Part shown: positions 12,101 to 54,257 of the stretch, in pieces
Numbering within the stretch: position 1 is the stretch's first letter
Layout: each line of letters opens with the position of its first letter
DNA from: Methylobacterium sp.
GTDB taxonomy: Bacteria > Pseudomonadota > Alphaproteobacteria > Rhizobiales > Beijerinckiaceae
Direction of reading: 5' to 3'
Assembly (NCBI RefSeq): GCF_019750675.1
Contig: NZ_JAIEOF010000164.1
Coordinates: 1-56,014, forward strand
DNA length: 56,014 bases
Position numbers and translations under genes: made by a program
Notes under the pieces: model-generated
The model's database searches: none
Seen by the model: only the letters and a program-made list of their open reading frames with translations
What the model was told of the DNA's origin: nothing

Positions 12101-12193
12101 GCGCCGGGGCTCTCCCGTGGGGAGCCCCGGCGCAGCGAGATGCGGACATGAAGAAGGGGCGCGCGGTCTAATCGACCGCGCGCCCCTTCTTTC
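12101..12193 (+). terminator. Tandem terminator hairpins after the RND operon
   Basis: The first hairpin is a 12-base stem GCGCCGGGGCTC/GAGCCCCGGCGC (12101-12133) without a T run. The second is a perfect 15-base stem AAGGGGCGCGCGGTC/GACCGCGCGCCCCTT with loop TAATC (12154-12188) followed by CTTTC. The second is a strong intrinsic terminator and could work on both strands. Confidence 0.85.
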
Positions 12194-12245
12194 GTCCGGC
12201 GTCGGTCGACGCCGAGCCCGAGTCTGTTCGAGCGGAGCCCGCTCA

Positions 12246-12423
12246 TATGGTTTCCGGTTGATGGCTTCGTTCTGGCAGGGCGCGACATGCTCCCTCTCCT
12301 GGAAGGAGAGGGTCGGGGTGAGGTGTGGTCCACATCCGGAAAGGTCACCCACCTCACCCTGTCCCTCTCCTTCCAGGAGAGGGAACCCGCGCCAGAACCC
12401 CGAACGATTCAGCCGGAAACCAT
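12246..12423. repeat. Long palindromic intergenic repeat, copy 1
   Basis: About 178 bp. Outer arms ATGGTTTCCGG / CCGGAAACCAT enclose two inner hairpins: CCCTCTCC-tggaa-GGAGAGGG near 12292 and CCCTCTCC-ttcca-GGAGAGGG near 12363, linked by GGGTGAGGTG ... CACCTCACCC, so the entire element can fold as one cruciform. It lies between the convergent RND and sdh operons and stops 2 bases before the sdhB stop codon. The same core recurs at 39487 and 51999. It occupies most of the 330-base gap that the terminators do not. Confidence 0.85.
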
Positions 12424-12424
12424 G

Positions 12425-13228
12425 TCAGACCTCGCGGGCGATCATCATCTTTTTGATCTCGGCGATGGCCTTGGCCGGGTTCAGGCTCTTCGGGCAGGTG
12501 TTGGCGCAGTTCATGATCGTGTGGCAGCGATACAGCCGGAAGGGATCGTGCAGGGCGTCGAGGCGCTCGCCGGTGTTCTCGTCGCGGCTGTCGATCAGCC
12601 AGCGATAGGCCTGGAGCAGGGCCGCCGGACCGAGGAAGCGATCGCCGTTCCACCAGTAGCTCGGGCACGAGGTCGTGCAGCAGGCGCACAGGATGCACTC
12701 GTAGAGGCCGTCGAGCTGGGCGCGGTCCTCCGGTGTCTGCTTCCACTCGCCCTCGGGGGCCGGCGTCTCGGTCTGGAGCCAGGGCTCGATCGAGGCGTGC
12801 TGGGCGAAGAAGTTCGTCAGGTCCGGCACGAGGTCCTTCAGCACCGGCATGTGCGGTAGCGGATAGATCCGCACCGCGCCGGTCTTCTTGCCCTTGGCGT
12901 GCTCCTGGCACTCGTCGATGCCCATGGTGCAGGCCAGCGCGTTCTGGCCCTCGATGTTCATGGCGCAGGAGCCGCAGATGCCCTCGCGGCAGGAGCGGCG
13001 GAACACCAGGGTCGAGTCGACCTTGCTCTTGATCCACAGAAGGGCGTCGAGCACCATCGGGCCGCAATCGTCCCGATCGACCTGATAGACGTCGACGCGC
13101 GGGTTCTTCCCGTCATCGGGGTTCCAGCGATAGATCCGGAACTCCTGCAGGTTGTTGGCCCCCTGCGGCCGAGGCCAGGTCTTGCCCTCGGTGATCTGAG
13201 AGTTCTTGGGTAGATTAAATTGAGCCAT
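12425..13228 (-). CDS. sdhB: Succinate dehydrogenase iron-sulfur subunit (267 aa)
   Basis: Electron-transfer subunit of complex II, passing electrons from the flavoprotein to ubiquinone. All three clusters are visible: the [2Fe-2S] ligands in [13 protein letters not shown] with a later ALAC Cys, the [4Fe-4S] motif [12 protein letters not shown] and the [3Fe-4S] region [17 protein letters not shown]. It is the last gene of sdhCDAB, 62 bases after sdhA, and ends against a palindromic repeat. The ATG at 13228 gives the normal family length and N-terminus ([10 protein letters not shown]). Confidence 0.97.
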
Positions 13229-39459: not shown

Positions 39460-39486
39460 AGAGGCTCCGCGCCTCATACGTTTATC

Positions 39487-39661
39487 GGGCTGATCCATTC
39501 GCATTCTGGCGCGGGTCCCCTCTCCTTCGGGAGAGGGACAGGGTGAGGTGTGTGATCTTTCCGGAGATGGACCACACCTCACCCCAGCCCTCTCCTTTCA
39601 GGAGAGGGGGCGCGTCGCGCGCCGTCAGACCGAAGCATTCAAGCAAAAATTGGATCAGCCC
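39487..39661. repeat. Long palindromic intergenic repeat, copy 2
   Basis: About 175 bp with perfect 11-base ends GGGCTGATCCA/TGGATCAGCCC. Inner hairpins CCCCTCTCC-ttc-GGGAGAGGG (near 39517) and CCCTCTCC-ttt-caGGAGAGGG (near 39589), joined by GGGTGAGGTGTG ... CACACCTCACCCC. The right arm includes the mntR stop codon. Between convergent genes; same family as 12246 and 51999. Confidence 0.85.
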
Positions 39662-40107
39662 ATCCGCTCGGTGAAGAGCCGGAACGCCTCCAGGGTCTCG
39701 GCGCTGACATGGTGCTCGATGCCCTCGGCGTCGCGGCGCGCGATCTCGGGCCTGACGCCGAGGGCGCACAGGAACTGCTCGACGATGCGGTGGCGCTCGC
39801 GGCTCTGCACGGCCAGGGCCTGGCCCGCCTCGGTGAGGAACACGCCCCGGTAGGGCCGCTGCTGCACGAGGCCGTCCTCGGCCAGGCGCTTGAGCATCTT
39901 GGCGACGGTGGGCTGGGCGACGCCGAGCCGGGCCGCGATGTCGACCTGGCGGGCCTCGCCGCCGTCGCCGATCAGGTCGGCGATCAGCTCCACGTAATCT
40001 TCCACGAGTTCGAGGCGGCGCGCCTCGCGGGCCTGCCGGAAGCTTTCCACGTGGACGTCGGGGTCGACGAGGGCCGTATCGGGCGCGGAGGAGGTCGAAT
40101 CCTGCAT
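39655..40107 (-). CDS. mntR: Manganese-responsive transcriptional regulator MntR (150 aa)
   Basis: DtxR/MntR-type repressor of manganese uptake. A winged-helix DNA-binding domain ([50 protein letters not shown]) is followed by the metal-binding and dimerisation region with [13 protein letters not shown] and [17 protein letters not shown], the latter carrying the usual Glu/His metal ligands. There is no SH3-like C-terminal domain, as in MntR rather than DtxR. The ATG at 40107 was chosen; the track's longer frame is unsupported. No mntH transporter is adjacent. Confidence 0.9.
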
Positions 40108-40210
40108 CTGGCCGGCGAACTCCCCCCGTTCGGCGCGCCGAACGGCGCCCGAGCCGGGTTGTAGCCAAGCGCGGCCCCGGATGGGAGCCCCCCGGGGCCC
40201 GAAAGCCGGA

Positions 40211-41098
40211 TCAGCCCCGGAGTTGGGCCACGAAATCCCGCGTGAAGCGGGGCAGGGCGTCGAGGTCGCGCACGCAGATGGTGAGGTCGCGCAGGGCCCA
40301 GGCATCCTCCAGGGGCACGATCGCCAGCGGCATGGTGCGGGCCGCCCGCGCCGCCGTGGTCTCGGGCACGATGCCGAGGCCGACGTCGCAGGCCACCAGC
40401 CGGCAGATCGCGTCGAAGCTGCGCAGCTGCACCCGCAGCCGCATGGGCGGGCGCCCCGTGCGCGCGGCCTTGTCGGCGAGGAAGCGGGTCAGGGCGCTGG
40501 TCCGGTCGAGGCCGACCAGCGGGTGCTCGATCACCTCCGCGAAGGCTACGCAGGTCCGCCCCGCCAGGGGGTGCCCGGTCGCCGCCACCATGACGAAGCG
40601 GTCCTGCCGGAACGGATAGGTCTCCAGCGCGCCGGTATCGACGGTGCCGGCCACGATGCCGAGATCGGCCGAGCCCTCCGCCACCAGCCCCACGATCTCG
40701 TCCGAGGTCCGCTCCTCGATGTCGACACTGACGCCGGTCTGACGCGCCAGGAAGGCGCTCAGGACCTCGGGCAGGAATTCGGTGAGCGCGTTGGTGTTCG
40801 AGACGAGGCGGATCTGCCCCACCGTGCCGCCCGAGAACGCGGCCAGATCCTCCTGCATGCGGTCGATGCGCTCGAGGAGCCCGCGCGCATGGGCGAGGAG
40901 CGAGCGCCCCGCCGGCGTCGGCACCACGCCCTGGCGCCCGCGCGTGAGGAGTGCCGCCCCGAGGGTCTCCTCCATGGCGCGGATGCGCACGGAGGCGGCG
41001 GCCAGCGCGAGGTTGGCGCGCCCCGCGCCGTGGGTGATCGAGCCCGCCTCCACCACGTGCCGGAACAGCGAGAGGTCGACGAGGTCGAAGCGCATCAT
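40211..41098 (-). CDS. LysR family transcriptional regulator (295 aa)
   Basis: An N-terminal helix-turn-helix, [50 protein letters not shown], is a LysR DNA-binding domain; the effector-binding domain covers about 90-295 ([37 protein letters not shown]). Divergent to ftsB, 78 bases apart, and beside no obvious metabolic target, so its regulon and ligand are unknown. The start could also be Met2 at 41095. Divergent LysR targets are usually the neighbouring gene, but ftsB is an unlikely target. Confidence 0.9.
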
Positions 41099-46127: not shown

Positions 46128-46151
46128 GCGACACATCGAGCCGCGCGCACC

Positions 46152-46260
46152 TCTCCTCCCCCTTGCGGGGAGGAGCCGGAGGTGGGGGTGGGGTCGGATG
46201 GATCGGTCACGGTGCCTTCTGCACCACCCCCACCCTGACCCTCCCCGCAAGGGGGAGGGA
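46152..46260. repeat. Palindromic repeat, second class, between pdhC and the DUF559 gene
   Basis: Two hairpins, CTCCTCCCC-cttgc-GGGGAGGAG (46153-46175) and CCCTCCCC-gcaag-GGGGAGGG (46239-46259), joined by GGTGGGGGTGGGG ... CCACCCCCACCC arms, so it can fold as a cruciform of about 109 bp. It is like the 12246-class element in design (hairpin, G-rich bridge, C-rich bridge, hairpin) but differs in sequence. Confidence 0.8.
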
Positions 46261-46311
46261 AGCGCTTGGTCGATGGGCCGTCGCGCGGGCGGACACGGGT
46301 GGACATCGGTG

Positions 46312-48176: not shown

Positions 48177-48513
48177 TCGTAAAACCGCATCCGAAACAAA
48201 GGCTTAGGGGTACCGACGCTCACGTGAATCGATCCTTCGGACAATGATCCGTTCGGCCGCGTCAGACTGGTTCATGCCCCTTCGCGCGCGGCACGCGTGA
48301 CCGGTTCTCGTCGAGGGCCGAAACACGCCGGAGATCGGAAGCCTCACGACGGCGAATGTGTGAGCGGCGACCGACCCGTATGGAGCCGCGATGTCGTCGG
48401 CTTCTCCCGTCGACGGGTTGATCCCGGAAAGGTCCGGCGGAAGCGGACGCTCCGTGTGGAATGAGATCGGTTCGCACCTCCCGCCGACCAGCCGGTTCGG
48501 CGGGAAGGGTCGC
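48177..48513. other. Gene-free region after lpdA
   Basis: 337 bases without a convincing gene. There is an 8-base hairpin CCCGCCGA/TCGGCGGG (48480-48504) just past the stop of the minus-strand gene that ends at 48514, which may terminate that gene, although no T run follows. I see nothing else. Confidence 0.5.
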
Positions 48514-49404
48514 TCATTCGGGAATGGCCTGCAGCGCGAAACCCGCCTTCAGCAATGGGCTGAGCGGGACAGACATCGGGTCGAACCACTTGGCGTAGAG
48601 ACGTGCGGCATCGCCCGAACGGAAAACCCCCGCGAGCGCTTTCGTGACGACCAAGCGGAATTCCGGATCATCACGGCGGAACATGATCCCGTAGGGATCG
48701 TAGGTGAGAAACCGGCCCGTCACCTCGAGTTCGCTGTGCTTGGGGGACTTCGAGAGCAAACCGAAGAGAACGATGTCGTCCGTCGCAAACGCATCCGACC
48801 TCCGCGTTTCGAGGGTCGCGAGACCTTCGGCATAGTCCTTCACGCTCAGAACGGCCGCGCGTTCGACAATCCCGTTGTCGACGAGCGCCTTGACGGCTTT
48901 TTCGTTTGTCGAACCGCCGACGACGGCGATTGTTCTACCGACAAGATTTTCGATCTCCTTGATGCCGTCCCGTTTCCAAGTCAGCAAACGTGTCCCGGTC
49001 GTGAAGAAAACCGCCGAGAAATCGACTTGCTGCTGACGGGCGAGCGTATTCGTCGTGGATCCGCATTCGAGGTCGACATGGCCATCCACGACCATCCGAA
49101 TTCGATTCTGAGGATTGACCGCGACATATCGCACGGCAATCTCGGAACGTTGCAGTGCGGCCCTCACTTCATCGACGATCTTGAGACATAGATCGACGGA
49201 ATATCCCACCGGCCGCTTGTTTTCATCGAGATAGGAAAACGGAATCGACGCTTCGCGGTGCCCGATGACGATGGATCCGGCCTCCTTGACCTTCCTGAGC
49301 GTCCCACTCAGATCTTCGGATCGCGCCGATTTCTGCAAAGATCCCGATACGGCAAGCAGGGCGATGCCTATCACGAAACAACGAACTTGTTTTCGATAGG
49401 ACAT
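48514..49404 (-). CDS. Amino-acid-type ABC transporter substrate-binding protein (296 aa)
   Basis: Periplasmic binding protein of the family 3 (GltI/glutamate-aspartate) type. A signal peptide MSYRKQVRCFVIGIALLAVSG is followed by GTLRKVKEAGSIVIGHREASIPFSYLDENKRPVGYSVDLCLKIVDEVRA (the canonical family opening), RIRMVVDGHVDLECGSTTNT and VGRTIAVVGGSTNE. The ATG at 49404 has GAGGAGG upstream. No permease or ATPase gene is adjacent, so it is an orphan. Its GC content appears lower and its codon use less biased than the neighbours by eye, and it sits between lpdA and lipA, which suggests acquisition from outside. Confidence 0.9.
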   Translation of the reverse strand: MSYRKQVRCFVIGIALLAVSGSLQKSARSEDLSGTLRKVKEAGSIVIGHREASIPFSYLDENKRPVGYSVDLCLKIVDEVRAALQRSEIAVRYVAVNPQNRIRMVVDGHVDLECGSTTNTLARQQQVDFSAVFFTTGTRLLTWKRDGIKEIENLVGRTIAVVGGSTNEKAVKALVDNGIVERAAVLSVKDYAEGLATLETRRSDAFATDDIVLFGLLSKSPKHSELEVTGRFLTYDPYGIMFRRDDPEFRLVVTKALAGVFRSGDAARLYAKWFDPMSVPLSPLLKAGFALQAIPE

Positions 49405-49619
49405 CTCTGCCTCCTCAAGCATTTTGGTATTGAGGTTTGCTCTGAGACCAATTGCTCAAATCGGCCTTGCGCTGGATCAAATCGATACGAAGGCGATGTC
49501 ATCCGCCGCACACGAACTGAATCACTGATGACGTCGATGGCAGCGCATTCGGGATCGAGCGCGGCAAGCACGACCTTCTCGGTTCCTGAGATTGGGGTGG
49601 GATACGCTTCGATAGGCAT
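49371..49619 (-). pseudogene. Possible short gene or remnant (82 aa from the internal ATG)
   Basis: In the 410-base gap 49405-49814 one minus-strand frame reads like real protein (AIDPRKVRFGPFVSNADGDLRDMPIEAYPTPISGTEKVVLAALDPECAAIDVI), continuing to a stop at 49371 inside the start of the binding-protein gene. No good start with a ribosome site is seen, the frame upstream passes into the antisense of glsB, and there is no recognised family. It may be the remains of a gene lost when the binding protein arrived. Confidence 0.25.
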
Positions 49620-49814
49620 GTCCCGAAGGTCGCCATCGGCGTTGCTGACGAATGGCCCGAAGCGGACTTTCCGAGGGTCGATCGCGCAAGCCCGAAACGC
49701 GCGTCGCAAAGATGTCGCGGGAGATCCGGCGCGCGCGGTTGAATCCGAACGGCGCCAAAGGCATCTGAGCCCGCTGGGGGATGCGGGCCGGGACCCGCTC
49801 TGGGGAGAATCACG

Positions 49815-51657: not shown

Positions 51658-51990
51658 TCAGCGCAGGTGCGGCGTCACGCGGGCGCGCAACAGCCGCACG
51701 AGATCCGGGTCCATGAAGCCATAGACGTCGGGGATGTCGAGGCAAACGAGGCGCGCGTGCTTCAGGCTCGCGCGGAAGCGGCGCTGCAGCAGCGCCCGGT
51801 GCCGGTTCTCCATCACCACGATCAGATCGGCCCAGGCGAGCCACTCCGCCGAGACCGGCTCGTCGGCCGCGGCATCCGTCCCCGCCGAGGCGACCTCCAG
51901 ATCGGGCCAGTCCGAGAACACCTGCTCGGCGGTCGGGCTGCGCAGCCGGTTTCGGCTGCACACGAAGAGCACGCGCCGCGCGCGTTTCAC
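51658..51990 (-). CDS. Low-molecular-weight protein tyrosine phosphatase-like protein (110 aa)
   Basis: LMW-PTP fold, smaller than the usual 150 residues. The catalytic P-loop CSRNRLRS (CX5RS) is intact near the N-terminus (RVLFVCSRNRLRSPTAEQVF), and the end has DIPDVYGFMDPDLVRLL, where the DPD replaces the usual DPY acid loop. Start at GTG 51990, because the track's longer N-terminus (HPNPLPNGRG) is read from the palindromic repeat. Its GGAG ribosome site lies at the edge of that repeat. Convergent with ratA, 3 bases apart. Substrate unknown. Confidence 0.82.
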   Translation of the reverse strand: MKRARRVLFVCSRNRLRSPTAEQVFSDWPDLEVASAGTDAAADEPVSAEWLAWADLIVVMENRHRALLQRRFRASLKHARLVCLDIPDVYGFMDPDLVRLLRARVTPHLR

Positions 51991-51998
51991 GCCAGCTC

Positions 51999-52165
51999 CG
52001 GTTGATCGCTTCGGTCGTCTTGGTCGGGACGGGCCCCCTCTCCCGTTTGGGAGAGGGTTGGGGTGAGGGGCGTGCCCCATCCGGAAAGGTCACACACCTC
52101 TCCCCAACCCTTTCCTTCCAGGAGAGGGAGCACGGAGCGCGCACGCAGACCGAAGCCATCGACCG
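51999..52165. repeat. Long palindromic intergenic repeat, copy 3
   Basis: About 167 bp with outer arms CGGTTGATCGCTTCGGTC / GACCGAAGCCATCGACCG and the same inner hairpins: CCCTCTCCC-gttt-GGGAGAGGG near 52030 and CCCTTTCC-ttcca-GGAGAGGG near 52108, with GGGGTGAGGGGC and CACCTCTCCCCAACC bridges. It is between two minus-strand genes and begins 9 bases upstream of the phosphatase start. Confidence 0.85.
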
Positions 52166-52174
52166 AAAACAGTA

Positions 52175-53962
52175 TCACGCCTTCACCACCCCGCCGGCCT
52201 GGCGCTCGAACAGGGCGCGGTAGCGCCCCTCCGGCCGGACCAGCAGGTCGTCGTGGCTGCCGTCCTCCACGATGCGGCCGCTCTCGAAGACGAGGATGCG
52301 GTCGAGGGCCCGCACGGTGGAGAGCCGGTGCGCGATGACGATGGCCGTGCGCCCGCGCATCAGGCGCTCCATCGCCTCCTGGATCAGCGCCTCCGATTCC
52401 GAATCGAGGCTCGAGGTGGCCTCGTCGAGGATCAGGATCGGCGCATCGGCCAGGAAGGCACGGGCGAGCGCCACCCGCTGGCGTTCGCCGCCCGAGAGCT
52501 TGACGCCGCGCTCACCCACCAGGGTGGCGTAGCCCTGGGGCAGGCGGGCGATGAAGTCGTGCGCGTTGGCGAGGCGCGCGGCGCGCGCGATCGCCTCCGC
52601 CGAAGCGCCGGGGCGCGCATACGCGATGTTCTCGGCCAGCGACCGGTGAAACAGCACCGGCTCCTGGGGCACGATGGCGATGTGCGCGCGCAACGACGCT
52701 TGCGTCACCCCGGACACGTCGCGCCCGTCGATGCGGATGCAGCCCCCGGTGACGTCGTAGAGGCGCTGCACCAGCTTGACGAAGGTGGTCTTGCCCGAGC
52801 CCGAGCGGCCGACGAGGCCGACCCGCTGCCCGGCCGGGATGTGCACCGAGAGGTCGCGGTAGAGGGGCGTCTCGTGCCCGGCATAGTGGAAGGTCACGTG
52901 CTCGAACCGCAGGTCGCCGTTCGTCGCGGCGAGCGCCGTGGCGCCCGGCCGATCGGCGACGCCGTAGGGCTCGGCCTCGAGGGCGACGAGTTCCTCCATC
53001 TCGTTGACGCCCCGCTGGACCCGGTTGATGTGGCTGCCGATGTCGCGCAGGTAGCCGTGCACCACGAAGTAGGTGGTCAGCACGTAGGCGACGTCGCCGG
53101 GGCTCGCCGCCCCCGTCCACCAGAGCCAGAGCGCCGTGCCCACGATGGCGGTGCGCAGCACCAGGAGCAGCGCGAACTGCGCCGTGATGCTCCAGGTGAT
53201 CCGCATCCAGGTCCGGTGGGTGCGCCGGTTCCACTTGCCGAGCAGCCGGGCGAGGCGCGCATCCTCACGGGCCTCGGCCCCGAAGGCCTTCACCACCGCG
53301 TTGGCGCCGACGGCGTCGCTGAGCGCACCGCCGAGGCGCGAATCCCAGACGTTGGAGAGCTGGGCCGCGGGCGCGATGACCCGGGTTGCGAGCATCACCA
53401 CGATGCCGAGATAGACCAGCGAGCCGAGGCCGATCACCAGCCCCATCACGGGCCATTGCAGGCCGAGCAGGATCATGGTGCCGAGGAGCACCGTGAAGGC
53501 CGGCAGCAGTTCCAGCAGCAGCGTGTCGTTCAGCCCTTCGAGGGCCCACATGCCGCGCGAGACCTTGCGCACGGTGGAGCCCGCGAAGCTGTTGGCGTGC
53601 CAGTCGGTCGAGAGGCGCTGGACCCGGTGGAAGCCGGCCTGCGCCACCGCCTGCATGGTCGAGAGGGTCAGCGGTACGACCAGGGCCCAGGCCACGTGGC
53701 GCAGGCCCAGGGTGATGAGGCCAAGCCCGGCCATCGCCGCGAAGGCGAGAAGGGCATCCCCGCGCGCCGCCATGCGGTCGGCGACCGAGAGCGCGTCGAC
53801 CAGCAGTCCGGCGAACAGGGGCAGGAACACGTCGCCGAGGGTCGCGCCGACGATCGCCGCGACGACACCGGCGACGAGGGGGAGGCGCGTCCGCCACTGG
53901 CGGACGAGGAAGGCGAGGACGGCCCGGTAGGCCTCCGCGCCGTGCAGGCGGTCGAGGAGCAT
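52175..53962 (-). CDS. ABC exporter, fused permease and ATPase (595 aa)
   Basis: MsbA-like half transporter, probably working as a dimer. Six membrane helices in residues 20-300 ([35 protein letters not shown] ...), then the nucleotide-binding domain: [16 protein letters not shown] (Walker A), [22 protein letters not shown] (Q loop), [18 protein letters not shown] (signature), [16 protein letters not shown] (Walker B) and [14 protein letters not shown] (H loop). The ATG at 53962 is used; an in-frame GTG at 53974 adds four residues. No ribosome site is clear. Lipid, peptide or drug export cannot be decided from sequence. Single gene. Confidence 0.9.
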
Positions 53963-54257
53963 GGATGCGATCACGGCGCGGAGCGGGCGCCGACTCCGTG
54001 GACGGCGCGGACGCGCGGGCGACCGGCCGAGGATTCAAAGAGGTGCGGGGAGGGGACGGGCGCGGCGCGCTCGGGCGCGCGGCGGCGTCAGGCCGGCAGG
54101 CGCGAAGAGCGCGGGCGGGCGGGCAGATGCGCGGAGCGCGGACGGACTGAGGAGGCGAACGATACCGATGTCATGCAGCCTCCCCAATGGATCGCGGGCG
54201 AACCCGGCGCGCAACGACGCGCCGTGATTCGGAACCTGACGATCGAGCGTGTCGGTT
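53963..54257. other. Gene-free region between ABC exporter and cinA
   Basis: About 295 bases, very GC-rich, with no convincing gene in either strand. It should hold the ABC exporter promoter. No clear hairpin terminator for the cinA-ispDF unit was found. Confidence 0.4.

Follow-up and report, generated by a model that had tools for sequence, protein, structure and literature searches.

The target duplication usually given for IS630 elements is TA. Among alphaproteobacteria, RIME (Rhizobium intergenic mosaic element) and Bru-RS of Brucella are intergenic palindromic mosaics. A search of open papers for RIME and Methylobacterium repeats found nothing. Some eukaryotic pogo/Fot elements of the IS630-Tc1-mariner group are reported to make 3-bp TAA duplications (PMC7386202). 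MiniMdi3, a MITE of Methylobacterium extorquens AM1 and DM4, is about 400 bp long and related to ISMdi3 (PMC2680597). For its part, the TM motif of Escherichia coli (TMECO), one of the TM/PIT repeats, has been reported without association with mobile elements (PMC4666352).

The elements described here lie in a 56,014-nucleotide stretch of Methylobacterium sp. DNA (contig NZ_JAIEOF010000164.1), the whole of which is called the window. They resemble MITEs derived from insertion sequences (ISs) of the IS630-Tc1-mariner group in that their terminal inverted repeats (TIRs) equal those of IS630-family copies with DDE_3 and winged-helix domains, and in being short, noncoding and flanked by a direct target duplication. 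They differ in that the duplication is TNA instead of TA, the TA here belonging to the element, and in that the interior is a foreign palindromic repeat and not a deleted transposase gene. With TMECO and other TM/PIT repeats (PMC4666352) they share the Y-R-R plan of hairpin and bridge, the paired inverted motifs, the short centre and the intergenic position; in contrast to E. coli TM/PIT, the Methylobacterium core rides inside a MITE. Like MiniMdi3, they are nonautonomous MITEs of this genus, although its description, as an ISMdi3 relative of about 400 bp, sets it apart.

Materials and methods

The genome that carries the window (hereafter the source genome) is a 4.92-Mb draft in 469 contigs, with 70% G+C in the part read. 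A total of 2.6 Mb of it was read for the comparison of copies and for training the hexamer gene finder whose gene calls were used in the position tests. The identities of the genes next to the window copies were taken from Pfam. The relatives compared were Methylobacterium sp. J-078 (G001) and M. goesingense (G047, ∼97% identical), and their empty sites were read from match coordinates, not from the letters of the relatives' sequences.

Three elements of one plan

The same plan was found in all three palindromes of the window: an outer arm, a CCCTCTCC hairpin, a GGGGTGAGG bridge, a TCCGGA centre, a CCTCACCC bridge, a hairpin and an outer arm. The copies align with one another and with their own reverse complements, and their exact limits (12246-12424, 39477-39654 and 51990-52174) were set by the flanking duplications and the empty sites. 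A first-pass annotation had described them as one palindromic family in intergenic space next to stop codons, with two members between convergent genes. The family is real, and these positions agree with ours: each element abuts, at its right end, the stop of the gene that faces it (TCA at 12425, 39655 and 52175), copies 1 and 2 separate convergent genes, and copy 3 lies between two minus-strand genes. Its start for copy 1 was exact, whereas those for copies 2 and 3 fell about 10 bases inside the true ends. The features are as follows.

12243-12245, left target-site duplication of copy 1, TCA
12246-12424, MITE copy 1, 179 bp; AcrB-family gene (+) to the left, gene for an SdhB-like iron-sulfur subunit (-) to the right
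12246-12291 (+), copy 1 outer arm B, IS630-type terminal inverted repeat, TATGGTTTCCGGTTGATGGCTTCG...
12292-12312, copy 1 hairpin 1, CCCTCTCCTGGAAGGAGAGGG: pyrimidine arm, loop and purine arm of the TM/PIT motif
12315-12323, copy 1 bridge GGGGTGAGG, paired with 12352-12359 and a candidate for the third strand in the triplex motif
12335-12340, copy 1 centre, TCCGGA
12352-12359, copy 1 bridge CCTCACCC
12363-12383, copy 1 hairpin 2, CCCTCTCCTTCCAGGAGAGGG
12384-12424 (-), copy 1 outer arm A, the other terminal inverted repeat
12425-12427 (-), right target-site duplication of copy 1, TCA = TGA stop of gene 12425-13228 (-)
39474-39476, left target-site duplication of copy 2, TCA; the G001 and G047 empty sites overlap by exactly these 3 bp
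39477-39654, MITE copy 2, 178 bp; transglutaminase-like gene (+) to the left, gene for an iron-dependent (DtxR-type) repressor (-) to the right
39518-39537, copy 2 hairpin 1
39588-39608, copy 2 hairpin 2
39655-39657 (-), right target-site duplication of copy 2, TCA = stop codon of gene 39655-40305 (-)
51987-51993, left flank of copy 3, TCACGCC, repeated at 52175-52181; minimal duplication TCA, 51987-51989
51990-52174, MITE copy 3, 185 bp, left end diverged; LMW-phosphatase-like gene (-) to the left, ABC-transporter gene (-) to the right
52036-52057, copy 3 hairpin 1
52108-52128, copy 3 hairpin 2
52175-52177 (-), right target-site duplication of copy 3, TCA = stop of ABC-transporter gene 52175-53974 (-)

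The left terminal bases of copy 3 no longer match the TIR consensus. Its left flank is TTTCACGCC, which on the minus strand reads GGCGTGAAA. There the TGA that ends the ABC-transporter gene probably overlaps, in GTGA, the GTG at which the phosphatase-like gene likely starts; the insertion would have parted the two genes, the 7-bp repeat preserving both the stop and the start.

The family in the genome and beyond

Full units start with TACNNTTTCCGG and end with CCGGAAANNGTA, the consensus of their imperfect terminal inverted repeats. The TIR is of the type TACNNTTTCCGGYTGANNNNTTCGG, with about 25 recognizable bp, and occurs in the outer arms in two related versions, A and B. The window elements are MITEs of 178 to 185 bp bounded by such repeats, which sets them outside the REP/RAYT class. 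BLAST with copy 1 returned 56 matches at about 30 separate places of the source genome, and profile searches also recovered the family. The counter-case named in the first-pass annotation, three copies and no more in the whole genome, is thus false. Some of these places hold the whole 178- to 185-bp unit and others the central core alone. MITE units mostly measure 171 to 185 bp; short forms of 107 to 109 bp with a single hairpin were found in contigs C469 and C402 and in M. goesingense (L218 and L220), and seem to have arisen by deletion between the two hairpins. At one site a long form in the source genome corresponds to a short one in M. goesingense.

When named genomes were scanned with one arm, these ends also appeared in Methylobacterium sp. 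J-078, J-090 and NEAU 140, in M. goesingense, in Methylorubrum aminovorans, in Blastochloris and in several proteobacterial MAGs. A minimal 41-bp element in Blastochloris sulfoviridis (L201, 170-210) is made up of two IS630-type ends joined back to back. Both the source genome (C427; L096, 6388-6600) and J-078 (L187/L214) carry a MITE at one orthologous site, in opposite orientations; the source genome also retains a remnant, CGTATCA, such as might be left if one copy had taken the place of another or come after it.

Target duplication and empty sites

A 3-bp direct repeat of the form TNA (TCA/TCA, TGA/TGA, TAA/TAA or TTA/TTA) flanks 27 of the 39 MITE and IS copies examined, against 31% expected with independent ends (p = 8e-7). 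The remaining 12 lack an exact direct repeat, 3 of them being in palindromic register and 9 in neither; the direct register prevails over the palindromic one with p = 8e-6. The triplet is a target-site duplication of the form TNA, and it is TNA instead of the usual TA of IS630 that stands at the MITEs as well as at both full IS copies.

All three window copies are missing at the orthologous sites of J-078 and M. goesingense. The copy 2 region matches each relative in two pieces, one reaching window position 39476 and the other starting from 39655, that overlap by exactly 3 bases; by these match coordinates, a single TCA stands in both relatives where two stand here. At copy 3 the overlap is 7 bp (TCACGCC), and at copy 1 the spacer of the relatives is slightly diverged. 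The reverse case is seen in J-090, where a MITE sits exactly on a TGA stop and the corresponding gene of the source genome ends with a plain TGA. The window copies are therefore recent insertions in the lineage of the source genome.

The window varies elsewhere too. Roughly 1.6 kb at ∼48180-49810, including a solute-binding-protein gene (48514-49422, minus strand), is missing in J-078, which has 111 bp there, and is replaced by about 4.2 kb in M. goesingense.

Stop codons and gene ends

The TNA duplication is the exact stop codon of a neighboring gene in 9 of 15 copies of the source genome, among them the three window copies (at the SdhB-like, DtxR-type repressor and ABC-transporter genes), and in 18 of 37 over all genomes. 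Stops make up 15.1% of all noncoding TNA sites, stops included, giving p = 9e-5 for the source genome and p = 2e-6 for all. Enrichment at the 3' ends of convergent genes, a check proposed in the first-pass annotation, was seen as well: 9 of 13 copies of the source genome fall in convergent gaps, where TNA sites predict 18%, and 0 of 13 in divergent gaps, where they predict 26%. With convergent gaps alone as background, the stop excess is 5 of 9 versus 27% (p = 0.07), which is only suggestive.

A probable IS630-family driver

A complete IS630-family element of 1,172 bp with the same ends, encoding winged-helix and DDE_3 open reading frames, is carried by a Methylocystis rosea plasmid, pGW6_1. 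Its ends read TCA|TACGGTTTCCGGTTGATTACTTCGG and ..CCGTA|TCA, with a TCA/TCA duplication. A second full IS with these ends, of 1,031 bp and flanked by TGA/TGA, was found in M. iwaonis. The arms of copy 1 and of a J-078 copy match the end of the M. rosea IS at 21 of 24 bases, compared to 7 for shuffled ends. Of the 13 best full-length matches to the transposase within the genus, 10 have the TIR motif where it is expected, by a by-eye count from two tables: about 7 to 35 bp behind the gene or ∼600 to 620 bp before it, and in one genome (G089, C65, 6881-8045) both TIR ends flank the transposase.

An IS630-family IS with these ends is thus the probable driver of the window MITEs. Neither an IS630-type transposase nor any DDE_3 gene was found in the source assembly, although a draft of 469 contigs could hide one; the driver of this genome would have been lost or left unassembled. 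In J-078, transposase fragments lie at contig ends, and multi-copy ISs usually break assemblies at such places. An IS5/IS1031-type origin, considered on account of the TNA duplication, was set aside: the full elements with these ends belong to the IS630 family (DDE_3). The source genome has two DDE_Tnp_1 matches.

The core and other interiors

The core is the inner 92 bp, from CCCTCTCC to GGAGAGGG, with two CCCTCTCC hairpins and two bridges. Its order is a pyrimidine arm, a loop, a purine arm, a short loop and a mirror-image purine stretch (GGGTGAGG), and set against Table 1 of PMC4666352 it shows the TM/PIT sequence plan (CCCTCTCC / GGAGAGGG / GGGTGAGG). At the level of sequence, then, the interior of the MITE matches the published TM/PIT (potential intrastrand triplex) motif. 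The core also occurs without IS630 ends in the source genome and widely in the genus; one such core-only place (C467, 31530) is absent in J-078 and another (C467, 28749) is common to both. At 164.5 kb, E. coli MG1655 has the same paired core plan, but without the central TCCGGA. This E. coli pair (L228, 249-336) also has the outer GGGGACC of the Methylobacterium core. A common origin of the E. coli and Methylobacterium cores is possible.

The same ends enclose another interior, CGTCATCGCGAGCC..., in NEAU 140, and yet another, of the GTTCGACAGGCTCACCATGAGG type, in proteobacterial MAGs. The IS630 ends thus look like a shell that took up different palindromic repeats.

A second intergenic palindromic repeat lies in the window at 46150-46262, with the same plan in other bases (CTCCTCCCCCTTGCGGGGAGGAG, a AGGTGGGGGTGG bridge, CCACCCCCACCC and CCCTCCCCGCAAGGGGGAGGG). 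Relatives of it occur elsewhere in the genus, and in contigs C387 and C455 of the source genome elements of this type stand at intergenic sites where other species have the TM/PIT core or a similar palindrome.

Folding and covariation

Folding z-scores against shuffled sequence were -11.3, -8.5 and -5.3 for copies 1, 2 and 3, and the window holds 12 hairpin-pattern matches, versus 0.4 expected. Rfam gave no family match at the three elements. In the consensus fold of 20 full copies, 4 of the 47 pairs show any two-sided change (covariation term, +0.38), so that the signal of a selected RNA structure is essentially nil. The statement of the first-pass annotation that the outer arms differ but keep pairing is only weakly true, the arms being TIR versions A and B; the selection on structure that it drew from this did not hold up, and the lack of compensatory changes that it had named as counterevidence is close to what was found. 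The MITE is a palindrome because it joins inverted transposon ends to a captured palindromic repeat.

Discussion

The three window palindromes are recent copies of a small mobile element with IS630-type ends and a palindromic repeat as cargo. The first-pass annotation had also suggested spread as a nonautonomous element, and this is borne out by the terminal repeats, the 3-bp target duplications, the empty sites in relatives and the matching IS630 element. We consider it highly probable that each element is explained as an IS630-derived MITE of two layers, a TIR shell and a TM/PIT core: the outer layer is a pair of TIRs like those at the ends of an IS630-family insertion sequence, and the inner one a palindromic TM/PIT repeat also present in the genome without those ends. 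Under the proposed model, an IS630-family transposase supplied in trans, its gene now missing from the source genome, would recognize the TIRs, excise or copy the unit and insert it into a TNA triplet, whose three bases would thereby be duplicated. Since the stop codons TGA and TAA fit TNA, insertion on a stop would regenerate the stop on the gene's side, and with the gene untouched the insertion would survive. On the other side stand the 12 of 39 copies without an exact direct repeat, copy 3 with its diverged left end and 7-bp repeat, the TNA duplication where TA is usual for IS630, the weaker stop-codon excess over a background of convergent gaps alone, and the lack of an IS630-type transposase in the assembled source genome.

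When a TGA enters the insertion and a TGA comes out of it, the gene is unharmed. The simplest reading of the stop-codon enrichment would thus be survival, a TNA insertion on TGA rebuilding TGA and sparing both gene and promoter; such rebuilding would account for the positions at stop codons and 3' ends and for the emptiness of divergent gaps. Gene ends may instead be targeted actively.

Palindromic, extragenic and dispersed multi-copy elements are also what REP/BIME repeats spread by a RAYT would look like, but the size, ends and target duplication differ. Single-strand Y1 transposition leaves no target duplication, whereas the unit here, of 178 to 185 bp, has TIRs and a 3-bp one. The first-pass annotation had proposed a search for a REP-associated tyrosine transposase, and no Y1_Tnp (PF01797) match was obtained in the source genome, controls being detected; nor was any GTAG-type REP sequence found of those tabulated in PMC2817692. 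Spread by a RAYT is accordingly very improbable. The same can be said of ancient conserved intergenic structures lost in the relatives: the family is old in the genus, yet two relatives have an uninterrupted copy 2 site with one TCA, and loss of exactly the inserted unit and one target copy in both is hard to credit.

Bidirectional terminators or mRNA 3'-end stabilizers, kept for ending or protecting the transcripts of convergent genes, would agree with the 3'-end position (9 of 13 in convergent gaps) and with the very stable fold. That position is, however, also explained by survival of insertions, the covariation signal is absent, and the insertions are recent, the genes of two close relatives doing without them. 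At copy 1, moreover, there is no suitable terminator-type T run, and a strong hairpin with a T-rich tail already stands at 12150-12195, behind the AcrB gene. We regard this function as improbable. Somewhat less so, though still unlikely, is a TM/PIT core that is itself mobile and enters a pre-existing palindrome now seen as the outer arms. The core does occur without these arms in the same genome and in the genus, one core-only place (C467, 31530) is absent in J-078, and the plan recurs in E. coli; but what the empty sites lack is the complete unit with its arms, and it is beyond those arms that the target is duplicated. A mobile core may be how the chimera arose; it does not explain how the window copies move today.

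Returning to the IS630-derived MITE, its interiors differ by lineage: the TM/PIT core in the clade of the window, the CGTCATCGCGAGCC type in Methylobacterium NEAU 140 and the GTTCGACAGGCTCACCATGAGG type in proteobacterial MAGs. We tentatively propose, at a little under even confidence, that one type of IS630 end is a reusable shell that captured unrelated palindromes in different lineages and carries them to stop codons, where duplication of the TNA target restores the stop. If true, the shell would be one vehicle for the spread of such palindromic intergenic repeats. Finding a TM/PIT repeat inside recent insertions with transposon ends and target duplications makes its route of spread testable, and the overlap of the TNA target with stop codons (TGA, TAA) offers a simple reason for such elements to gather at gene ends.
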